Below are positions 8,891-11,793 of a stretch of DNA of 21,306 bases, in pieces; position 1 is the first letter of the stretch, and each line of letters starts with the position of its first letter. Below the pieces are notes generated by a model, which did no database searches, was not told the DNA's origin, and saw only the letters and a list, made by a program, of their open reading frames with translations. The stretch covers positions 1-21,306 of IMG/VR virus record IMGVR_UViG_3300013306_000062; one strand, written 5' to 3'. The stretch is from a virus. The translations under genes were made by a program, and so were the position numbers.

Positions 8891-9273
8891 TCGGCCTGGC
8901 GATGGGCCAGCGCATGGCTGAGGCCAAGATGAAGGACACGTGCCACATCACGCGGCCGGGCCCGAACGTGTGGGACGAACTGACGATGCTCTACACCCCA
9001 TCGAGCATCAACGTGTACGAGGGCAAGTGCGGGCTGCTGAACCCCTACCGCGCCCCGACGACGGCAAGCACCCCGGGACAGGCTCAGACAGTCCAGATGG
9101 CCCGCCTCTCCCTCCCTGTGGCAACTTCCACCGGGATCCAGGAAGGCGACGTCGTGGAGTACCTGACATCCGCGTCTGACCCGGACCTCCCCGGGCGGAA
9201 GTTCAAGGTCATCGGCGGCGCACACCAGTCGGATGCTACGGCGCGGCGCGTCCCTGTCGAGGAAGTGTCGTAG
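8887..9273 (+). CDS. Head-tail stopper-like protein
   Basis: A 128-aa protein if it starts at GTG 8887, which overlaps the previous stop as GTGA; an internal ATG at 8902 is an alternative. The sequence has the beta-barrel pattern of short head-closure proteins: DTCHITRPGPNVWDELT, then VYEGKCGLLNPY, then QMARLSLPVATSTGIQEGDV and FKVIGGAHQSDATARRVPVE. I recall the DUF6093-type proteins of actinophages as the closest relatives, without a search. The predicted role is sealing the portal channel after packaging. Its stop codon overlaps the start of the next gene by one base. Confidence 0.7.
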   Translation: MIGLAMGQRMAEAKMKDTCHITRPGPNVWDELTMLYTPSSINVYEGKCGLLNPYRAPTTASTPGQAQTVQMARLSLPVATSTGIQEGDVVEYLTSASDPDLPGRKFKVIGGAHQSDATARRVPVEEVS

Positions 9274-10090: not shown

Positions 10091-10252
10091 GTGGCGCTCG
10101 TAAGAGTTCGCAGCAAGAAAACCAGGGAAGAATCCACCGTCGATGAGGCGTGGCTGACCCGATGGCCGGATGACTTCACTGTCGTCAAGCCCGCAAATTC
10201 CACGAAGGAAACTACGCCGGCTTCCGGCAACGACAAGAAGGAGAAGGCGTAA
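10091..10252 (+). CDS. Small conserved protein before the tail tube gene
   Basis: A 53-aa frame starting at GTG 10091 with GGAG at 10081-10084 (6-nt spacing) and ending at TAA 10250-10252, overlapping the next ATG by one base. Translation begins MALVRVRSKKTREESTVDEA and continues WLTRWPDDFTVV before a Lys/Thr-rich tail. The tight spacing on both sides and a good ribosome site argue that it is translated. Similar very short proteins between the tail terminator and major tail protein are common in actinophages, but function is unknown. Confidence 0.75.
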   Translation: MALVRVRSKKTREESTVDEAWLTRWPDDFTVVKPANSTKETTPASGNDKKEKA

Positions 10253-10752
10253 TGGCCCTTGAAGAAACCCCCGGTTCCGTCGCTACTGACGGCAACCTCA
10301 CTGTCTGGTTTGTCCCCGATGCACCGGGCGCGAACCCCGCATCCAAGGCAGTTCTCGATGCCAGCACGTCCAAGCGGATCACCTATTCGCTGACCCCGGA
10401 CGGATGGAACCACACGGTCGATGAGGCCACCATCGAGGACGGCCGCCTCACCCTCAAGCAGGTCTTGCAGGAGGCCGGCACGGTCACGGACAACCTCGAG
10501 CTCCACTACGTCTACGGCGCCGACGACGACGTGGCCGACGTCGCTCTCGTTGCGGGCGTCCGCGGCTGGCTCGTGGCCCGCTACGCCATCCCCAACGAGG
10601 ACGACGTGACCGTGGGCGACCTCGTGGACGTCATCCCCGTCCGGTGCGGCGTGCAGCGCAAGACCGCGCCCGCCCGCAACGCGACCTTCACCAAGCAGCA
10701 GAAGATGTTCGTCAAGGGCACCGTTCTGCGTGACCAGGCTGTCGTCGCCTAG
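10252..10752 (+). CDS. Major tail (tube) protein
   Basis: A 166-aa protein at ATG 10252 with AAGGAG upstream in the end of the previous gene. The sequence is beta-rich with a long loop: GNLTVWFVPDAPGANPASKA, TSKRITYSLTPDGW, EDGRLTLKQVLQEAGTVTDN, LELHYVYGADDDVADVALVA, and a C-terminal strand region with QQKMFVKGTVLRDQAVVA. It fits the immunoglobulin-like tail tube fold that stacks in rings to form the siphovirus tail. Position between the terminator and the frameshifted chaperone pair is diagnostic. A 13-bp stem hairpin follows immediately. Confidence 0.87.
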   Translation: MALEETPGSVATDGNLTVWFVPDAPGANPASKAVLDASTSKRITYSLTPDGWNHTVDEATIEDGRLTLKQVLQEAGTVTDNLELHYVYGADDDVADVALVAGVRGWLVARYAIPNEDDVTVGDLVDVIPVRCGVQRKTAPARNATFTKQQKMFVKGTVLRDQAVVA

Positions 10753-10762
10753 TTGAAACACT

Positions 10763-10798
10763 CCTGCCGCCCGTCTTTCCACCGGGACGGGCGGCAGG
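10763..10798 (+). terminator. 13-bp stem hairpin after the tail tube gene
   Basis: CCTGCCGCCCGTC (10763-10775) and GACGGGCGGCAGG (10786-10798) form a perfect 13-bp stem around the 10-nt loop TTTCCACCGG. No T tract follows, so it may attenuate transcription, stabilise the upstream mRNA, or serve mainly as the scaffold of the pseudoknot described next. Confidence 0.8.
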
Positions 10799-10829
10799 TC
10801 CAACTTCATCCGGTGGAACGGTGGAAGGA
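10777..10829 (+). promoter_or_regulatory. Candidate pseudoknot: hairpin loop complementary to the ribosome-site region
   Basis: Loop TTCCACCGG (10777-10785) is the exact complement of CCGGTGGAA (10810-10818). The 8-mer CGGTGGAA is repeated head to tail at 10811-10818 and 10819-10826; both copies can pair with the loop over at least 8 bases. The second copy runs into the ribosome site GGAAGGA (10823-10829) of the chaperone gene. Pairing with the first copy gives a classic H-type pseudoknot; pairing with the second would hide the ribosome site. Regulation is inferred. Confidence 0.55.
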
Positions 10830-10837
10830 AAATTCTT

Positions 10838-11356
10838 ATGTCGAAGCTCAAGAACAAGACTGACAAGGCAACATTCCGGTACAGGGACGTAACGGTGATG
10901 CTGGACGGTGAGAAGGCAGCGGAGCGGGACGCGCTGATCGAGTTGATTTCCGAGGCGCAGGAGCCCGGTGACGCTCGCCTGGGCAAGGACCCGGCAGCGG
11001 AGGCGCGGAAGAAGCTGGCGGCCCTCGAGGACGAGATGCGCGAGGCTCTGGTCACTGTTCGGGTGCGGGCGCTCGACACGGACAAGTGGAACGCGCTGAC
11101 CGCGAAGTTCCCGGCCCGTGAGGGCGTGGCGATTGACGAGCGCAAGCAGTACAACATCGTTGAGGTCACGAAGGCCGCCGTTGAAGCTGGCGGCTTCCTG
11201 TTCGAGGATGGCAAGACTGAGCCTGTCGAAGCGGATGAGTGGCCGGCGTTCTGGAAGTCACTGTCCGGTGGCGATTTCGATCGCTTCTGGATCGCGGCCT
11301 ACACGCTGAACGAGACAGACGGCTGGATGGGTGTTGACTTCCTAAAAAAAGGCTGA
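10838..11356 (+). CDS. Tail assembly chaperone, zero-frame product (gpG-like)
   Basis: A 172-aa product at ATG 10838 with AAGGA at 10825-10829. It is charged and mostly helical: MLDGEKAAERDALIELISEA, EARKKLAALEDEMREALVTV, then a segment YNIVEVTKAAVEAGGFLFED and an aromatic C-terminus FWKSLSGGDFDRFWIAAYTL. This resembles the first of the two tail assembly chaperones of siphoviruses, which coat the tape measure before tube assembly. It ends in LKKG-stop at the slippery run of seven A (11344-11350). A minor share of ribosomes is expected to shift to the next frame and make the longer fusion. Position between tail tube and tape measure is diagnostic. Confidence 0.85.
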   Translation: MSKLKNKTDKATFRYRDVTVMLDGEKAAERDALIELISEAQEPGDARLGKDPAAEARKKLAALEDEMREALVTVRVRALDTDKWNALTAKFPAREGVAIDERKQYNIVEVTKAAVEAGGFLFEDGKTEPVEADEWPAFWKSLSGGDFDRFWIAAYTLNETDGWMGVDFLKKG

Positions 11357-11793
11357 GGGATTCCCCCAGCCTTTTGAGGGATGTCCGGCTGGCGCGGGAG
11401 TTGGGGATCGCCCCGCGCCGGCTGTGGGGCTGGGAGCCAGTGGAGTCCACAACGCATCACCATGACGGCATCGGGCAGTTGGTGGGATCCACCACAACCC
11501 GGGAGCCGGAGTTCGACCAGGAGCAGCGCGAATGGTTCCGGGCGCTGTACGAGCTCGAGGCGGACACCGGCCAGTACGGCGAGTGGATTTCCGAAGCGAC
11601 AAGCATTGACGCAGACCCGAACAACCGGAACCGGAAGTACCACTACGCTGCGGGCGCCGCTGACGCGCCGAACCTGCCCGCTATCAACTGGGCCGAGTAT
11701 GCCGTGACGACGGCGCAGGACCGCTATTACAAGCAGTACCCGGACGCGAACCGTGCAGGCCATATGTGGTTCGTGCGGAAGGTCAAAAACTAA
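10838..11793 (+). CDS. Tail assembly chaperone fusion made by -1 frameshift (gpGT-like)
   Basis: Reading the zero frame to AAA 11348-11350, slipping back one base and continuing from AGG at 11350 gives 171+147 = 318 aa with no stop until 11793. The added part (RLRDSPSLLRDVRLARELGI, then LWGWEP, DQEQREWFRALYELEADTGQ, HYAAGAADAPNLPAINWAEY and a basic end) has no ribosome site of its own at its 5' end. Its -1 phase relative to the upstream gene is what the lambda G/GT system and nearly all siphovirus chaperone pairs require. The extension would recruit tail tube subunits to the tape measure. The shift is inferred from frame layout and the A7 run. Confidence 0.8.
11344..11375 (+). promoter_or_regulatory. 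Slippery A7 run with an overlapping hairpin
   Basis: The zero-frame codons CTA AAA AAA GGC TGA contain A-AAA-AAA (11344-11350), which allows re-pairing of both tRNAs after a -1 slip. AAAAGGCTG (11347-11355) pairs with CAGCCTTTT (11367-11375), with GGG/CCC continuing inside after an A-C mismatch and ATT as loop. The hairpin begins within the slip site instead of 5-9 nt downstream, and with TTTT on its 3' side it also looks like an intrinsic terminator. Both roles are possible. Confidence 0.72.

Follow-up and report, generated by a model that had tools for sequence, protein, structure and literature searches.

The junction between the tail tube and chaperone genes

The window analysed here, by which we mean the whole stretch of DNA, is a 21.3 kb (21,306 nt) virus record covering the late operon of a siphophage, with genes for terminase, portal, capsid, head-tail proteins, the major tail protein, the tail assembly chaperone (TAC) and the tape measure. 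The major tail (tube) protein was assigned through PHROG 2491 'major tail protein' (E=1.7e-14) and is 49% identical to gp12, the major tail protein of phage Footloose. The TAC was assigned by its place between the major tail and tape-measure genes, where the annotated TACs of Footloose and Hestia also sit, and shares 87% and 79% identity with the proteins of two related loci, L001 and L003, respectively. The features at the junction of the two genes are as follows:

10252..10752, + strand: major tail (tube) protein gene, 166 aa, stop codon TAG
10763..10775, + strand: 5' arm of stem S1, 13 bp
10776..10785, + strand: loop TTTCCACCGG, of which 10777-10785 is predicted to pair with copy A and 10777-10784 with copy B
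10786..10798, + strand: 3' arm of stem S1
10799..10809, + strand: G-free linker, 11 nt, predicted pseudoknot loop L3 in the copy-A state
10810..10818, + strand: copy A, CCGGTGGAA, predicted to form 9 bp with the loop (-15.5 kcal/mol)
10819..10826, + strand: copy B, CGGTGGAA, predicted to form 8 bp with the loop (-13.5 kcal/mol), overlapping the Shine-Dalgarno region
10823..10829, + strand: Shine-Dalgarno (SD) region of the chaperone, GGAAGGA, separated by 8 nt from the ATG at 10838
10838..11356, + strand: tail assembly chaperone, first frame, 172 aa

Stem S1 (CCTGCCGCCCGTC/GACGGGCGGCAGG) is a perfect 13-bp helix closing a 10-nt loop; it is the longest perfect hairpin detected in the window, with an estimated energy of -30.9 kcal/mol. 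Loop positions 10777-10785 (TTCCACCGG) and positions 10810-10818 (CCGGTGGAA) are perfectly complementary, and the core CGGTGGAA occurs in tandem at 10811-10818 and 10819-10826, the second copy merging into GGAAGGA. In the copy-A state, the pseudoknot loops would be L1 = 1 nt and L2 = 0 nt. The RNA folding z-score of the junction region is -3.2, obtained with a method that does not consider pseudoknots, and the pairing energies given here were likewise estimated without a full pseudoknot energy model. An earlier sequence-only reading of this phage had described the 13-bp stem, the loop complement, the tandem core and its merger with the ribosome site, all of which held, with every coordinate correct.

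Two further observations concern the flanks of the element. The segment AGTTG (10751-10755), which overlaps the tail gene stop, is complementary to CAACT (10801-10805) in the linker, as is also the case in L001 and L003; the two could possibly form a 5-bp outer helix around the hairpin that would compete with the pseudoknot. At the other end of the chaperone gene, an A7 run followed by GG ends the first frame (window 11344-11375), next comes a 14-nt inverted repeat (11347-11360/11362-11375), and the -1 frame is open up to 11793. This site looks like the programmed -1 frameshift commonly present in tail assembly chaperone genes, an inference made from the sequence alone.

The element is specific to the tube/TAC junction, as neither the window nor Footloose holds a comparably strong second site. 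An architecture scan for hairpins with a stem score of at least 27 and a loop complementary to at least two downstream copies returned the junction as the sole hit on both strands of the window, and in the complete Footloose genome the junction (35.0) and one weaker site (28.5). At a threshold of 30, both strands of 2.2 Mb of other viral contigs gave three hits; these background contigs were reused from a DNA pattern scan with CCACCGG...CCGGTGG, which had returned many unrelated inverted repeats. Comparison of the window with Rfam 15 yielded no matches above the gathering threshold, the only hits being at chance level (E 3.8-4.6). The core CGGTGGAA is found seven times in the window (1.2 expected), three of these belonging to the junction; the other four copies, or their complement, lie at 9126, 15272, 16453 and 16742, none of them at an obvious gene start.

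A common architecture with changing sequences

Searches with the junction as nucleotide query against phage records, with the tail protein alone against viral contigs and with the chaperone against genomes each gave no matches. Relatives were obtained with a tail-protein alignment, which returned 80 further viral loci, and a second alignment, which returned 80 loci on contigs partly shared with the first set; two Herbiconiux prophages were added. The architecture is present in nearly all of more than 100 distinct major-tail/TAC junctions from actinobacterial phages and consists of a GC-rich stem of 12-16 bp, a loop of 5-18 nt and usually 2-4 downstream copies complementary to the loop, but the junctions have almost no alignable sequence in common. 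In L001, L003, L132 and L134 the whole arrangement is retained, copy A being unchanged and the flanking bases different. In Footloose the loop is TTTCTCACCG and GGTGAG is found three times downstream, the last copy ending 1 nt before the start codon, while Hestia has the loop TGTTGTGGGAC and three copies of GTCCCAC, and AGM1 has TCTCCTG within its loop and three copies of CAGGAGA. The element was also found in TM4, Paito, Gaia, prophiGD17-2, BelmontSKP, Chickaboom, Urla, Korra, Sleepyhead, Phistory, D29, Bxb1 and Kampy, several of which (TM4, Paito, Korra, BelmontSKP, D29) have tail proteins distant from that of the window. For Sleepyhead, Phistory and Bxb1 the automatic finder chose a wrong stem, and the stems were identified by visual inspection and subsequently compared with shuffled sequences. 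Altogether, the element is carried by Microbacterium, Arthrobacter, Brevibacterium, Gordonia, Rhodococcus and Mycobacterium phages and by the Herbiconiux prophages; it appears widespread, and the scope of the sequence-only reading, a single phage, was too modest.

That reading would have been refuted by relatives in which stem and gene order are kept without the complementarity, and very few of these exist: among the more than 100 distinct junctions, the pairing is absent in L160, Ziko, MalagasyRose and Maco7 and weak in L211 and L195. Ziko has a true terminator-like hairpin with a T-run and no loop-copy pairing. Several siphophages do without a gap at the tube/chaperone junction, and no suitable gap or hairpin was found in phiC31, PA6, lambda, Cracklewink, Streptococcus Javan520 or Lactococcus 63301. 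As a separate observation, Kampy, D29 and Bxb1 (L312 475-600, L313 580-700 and L314 1499-1625) have a second small hairpin between the tail stop and the main hairpin, exemplified among these Cluster A hairpins by TTGACACG/CGTGTCAA of Bxb1.

The hairpin could alternatively be a leaky terminator, or a 3'-end or RNase barrier, that lowers the amount of chaperone mRNA, with the repeat pairing being secondary and, for example, stabilising the 3' end. In Corndog/Cluster O, the stem-loop that follows the major tail gene has been described as a terminator (PMC4351075); it lies at the same junction, loop-repeat pairing is not described there, and the Corndog sequence was outside the present comparison. 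Moreover, RNA levels in Kampy peak over genes 14-22, gene 22 coding for the major tail protein (PMC4626039), and the element lies directly after gene 22. However, a T-rich stretch (at least 5 T in 8) follows the stem in only 9 of 72 distinct junctions, and TTTT in 3 of 72. In the window the stem is followed by TCCAACTT, the U-tract criterion is not met and a consensus terminator scan did not include this site, while Ziko, which does have a real T-run, is among the few phages lacking the pairing. A terminator would also leave unexplained why the loop matches two or more copies and why copies lie at the ribosome site, and we regard it as an unlikely account of the element. It remains possible that RNA loss at the hairpin adds to a translational effect, as the Kampy RNA levels might indicate, or that RNA loss or processing at the hairpin alone could lower chaperone expression.

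Covariation and geometry of the loop-copy pairing

The loop and its copies have been replaced in concert across the phages, with complementarity retained. For 48 distinct loops, the longest complement between loop and downstream sequence has a mean length of 7.6 nt, compared with 4.3 nt when loops were exchanged among junctions (SD 0.15, max 4.8), and at least two copies are present for 94% of the loops versus 14% with permuted loops. When G-U pairs are allowed, two separate sites of -8 kcal/mol or better are found in 68 of 73 junctions, a second site reaching this value in 93% of cases as observed and 23% with permuted loops. In a non-circular test, direct repeats were sought in the downstream 50 nt without using the loop: repeats of at least 6 nt occur in 54 of 72 junctions, and the reverse complement of the repeat is found in the junction's own loop in 46 of these 54 (permuted mean 2.6, max 8, 1000 permutations), whereas the repeat is found in the loop in direct orientation in none of the 54. 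Paired changes of loop and repeat, for which an alignment of relatives had been suggested by the sequence-only reading, are seen even between phages whose tube proteins are 79-82% identical. In the two pairs concerned, L201/L181 and L185/L176, the loops differ and each matches its own repeats only (9 and 10 nt within a phage, 4 and 5 nt across the pair).

Among the loops, at least 16 types that do not cross-pair with one another were distinguished. Single-linkage clustering was uninformative, since 6-nt chance cross-matches join all types, and the covariation counts are counts of sequences and not of independent events. With so many types, and with close relatives that differ, descent from a single ancestral sequence does not suffice as an explanation. 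Differences of the G-U type outnumber those of the mirror type (18 vs 7, p = 0.11), which is weak and merely suggestive of RNA pairing over DNA-binding sites. The pairing between loop and copies is strongly supported by covariation, in the absence of probing data.

Two other explanations were considered. Chance complementarity in GC-rich DNA has in its favour that short GC-rich words pair easily and that permuted loops still give a second site in 23% of cases; it is contradicted by all permutation and orientation controls, is refuted for the set as a whole and can be all but excluded. Alternatively, the loop and copies could be sites for a DNA-binding protein of drifting specificity, with all sites changing together. 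The copy spacing indeed peaks near 10 bp, but it ranges from 6 to 15 nt and more. Furthermore, the loop copy is always in complementary orientation, never direct, and always resides in the loop of a strong hairpin, on its 3' side, and in Footloose GGTGAGA is found on the + strand solely at the junction. A DNA-level role is therefore, on these points, very improbable.

The arrangement of the paired segments follows that of an H-type pseudoknot, in which the loop and a copy would form a second stem, S2. In the 61 loops analysed, pairing involves the 3' side of the loop, L2 being 0 in 40 and at most 1 nt in 53 of them, with a median L1 of 2 nt and S2 of 8 bp; L1 exceeds L2 in 51 of 61 loops, compared with a mean of 25 and a maximum of 38 for random placement (10,000 draws). 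The linker before the first copy contains 6% G over all junctions and is usually about 10-13 nt long (median L3 10 nt), which is enough to cross a 13-14-bp stem. Criteria for an H-type pseudoknot are met in that the loop pairs outside the stem with covariation, S2 is on the 3' side, L2 is short and L1 is 1-4 nt; the criterion for L3 is met by the median of 10 nt, but the first copy of one clade lies just 4 nt from the stem. In this GTCCCAC clade (L182, L189, L193, L222 and kin), GTCCCAC and GTCCCGC are located 4 and 13 nt after a 14-bp stem, the linker to the first copy being too short for a comfortable H-type knot and the second copy alone fitting. The geometry across the junctions agrees with the requirements of an H-type pseudoknot with coaxial stems and would not be required by DNA-binding sites or by pairing in trans, although neither probing data nor a solved structure is available. 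The proposal of the sequence-only reading that one copy forms an H-type pseudoknot is supported, across relatives, by both covariation and geometry.

In 59 of 70 junctions, the last copy ends no more than 13 nt from the start codon or enters it. The loops of D29, Bxb1 and Kampy contain GGCGGGCCTT; here copy A, GCCCGCCA or GGCCCGCC, follows the stem at a distance of about 11 to 17 nt, and copy B pairs across the SD bases AAGG with the help of G-U pairs. With the D29 copy B, AAGGTTCGCCA-TG, pairing extends as far as the start codon. Covering of the SD cannot be general, because both copies of the GTCCCAC clade are located 17-26 nt before the start and upstream of the SD region. Pairing with copy A (mean -13.9 kcal/mol) is stronger than with the last copy (-11.7 kcal/mol; Wilcoxon p = 5.5e-4). 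The idea that the other copy covers the ribosome site thus holds as a matter of position in most junctions; the covering itself is inferred.

Pseudoknots just after a stop codon can stimulate recoding, and the element could conceivably promote programmed readthrough or frameshifting where the tail-tube gene ends, as the frame after the TAG in the window is open for about 36 codons. However, stop codon and stem are not separated by a fixed distance (a few to more than 25 nt), relatives such as L133 close this frame sooner, and the chaperone gene already has its own internal recoding site. With its variable spacing and closed frames, this candidate was rejected as very unlikely.

A proposed translational switch and its nearest analogues

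The comparison establishes the architecture and its covariation, the H-type geometry and the fact that the last copy mostly lies at the ribosome site. On this basis we hypothesize that the junction carries a cis-acting mRNA element in which two mutually exclusive pseudoknots tune translation of the chaperone, a reading that we consider likely and for which no probing or expression data exist. S1 would form once the major tail gene has been transcribed, and its loop would then pair, as an S2 of 6-10 bp stacked on S1, either with copy A, which follows the stem by about 10-13 nt, or with copy B, which in most junctions lies at the chaperone SD or start codon. Pairing with copy A would leave the ribosome site free and pairing with copy B would cover it, and competition between the two would result in low or adjustable chaperone translation relative to the abundant tube protein from one transcript. 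The balance may be fixed or may be shifted by ribosomes, the tube protein or the chaperone. That the element is an RNA translational switch, that the ribosome site is open in the A state and closed in the B state, and that the element affects the TAC:tail-tube ratio are inferred from sequence alone; the setting of this ratio, which the sequence-only reading had suggested, accordingly keeps its inferred status.

The nearest analogues, identified as such by analogy, are the T4 gene 32 operator and the timP pseudoknot. In phages T4 and RB69, downstream translation is controlled by a pseudoknot in the gene 32 mRNA that precedes repeats which include the ribosome site; the gene is a different one, the repeats are UUAAA protein sites, the knot is short (~28 nt) and there is no alternative pairing between copies (PMC535899). 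By this precedent, a phage protein, either the tube protein or the chaperone, could bind the pseudoknot and the single-stranded copies and repress its own or the neighbouring gene, the competition between loop and copies being part of protein recognition. The repeats downstream of the T4 pseudoknot extend over the ribosome site, and the protein binds there cooperatively (PMC535899). This layout is met by the present sequences, there being no data on repression by a protein, and up to four copies would suit multivalent binding better than a simple two-state switch. On the other hand, loop and copy sequences differ between phages with 79-82% identical tube proteins, which a sequence-specific protein could hardly follow, and the T4 repeats, UUAAA/UAAA, are protein sites not described as complementary to the loop. 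We find such an operator unlikely and retain the two-pseudoknot switch as the preferred reading.

In timP mRNA, which belongs to a type I toxin-antitoxin system, exclusive conformations, one with a pseudoknot, similarly decide translation, but an antisense RNA acts on this mRNA, there are no tandem copies and the gene encodes a bacterial toxin (PMC11228461). In the repZ pseudoknot of IncB/IncI-alpha plasmids, a hairpin loop pairs with a sequence immediately preceding the ribosome site of the following gene; repZ differs from the junction element in having just one pairing partner, in depending on translation of a leader peptide and in being regulated by an antisense RNA. Repeats at translation starts are also known in actinophages, including TM4, as the SAS/ESAS of Cluster K mycobacteriophages; these, however, are one conserved 13-bp sequence found at many genes, whereas the junction copies are phage-specific, confined to one junction and complementary to a loop (PMC3203893). 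Identity with SAS/ESAS was rejected, since the TM4 junction contains CACCAGG/CCAGGAAA/CACCAGGA and not the 13-bp GGGATAGGAGCCC.

A pseudoknot or loop-complementary repeats at this junction were found to be undescribed in the open-licence literature searched, outside which most subscription papers lie; the sequence-only reading likewise knew of no pseudoknot of this kind at this junction in actinophages. We lean, with some reserve, towards the bolder interpretation that most of the actinobacterial siphophages examined carry an undescribed two-register switch, conserved in architecture and not in sequence, in which a decoy competes with the ribosome site.

The tube protein and the TAC are neighbours in one operon and are needed in very different amounts, and how their ratio is controlled without an obvious terminator is unsolved in actinophages. 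The element occurs in the well-studied laboratory phages D29, Bxb1 and TM4, where it has apparently not been described, and is testable with existing genetics. Its striking covariation is not accompanied by sequence conservation, and similar elements defined by architecture only may be common in phages yet unseen, because searches based on the sequences of RNA families would miss them.
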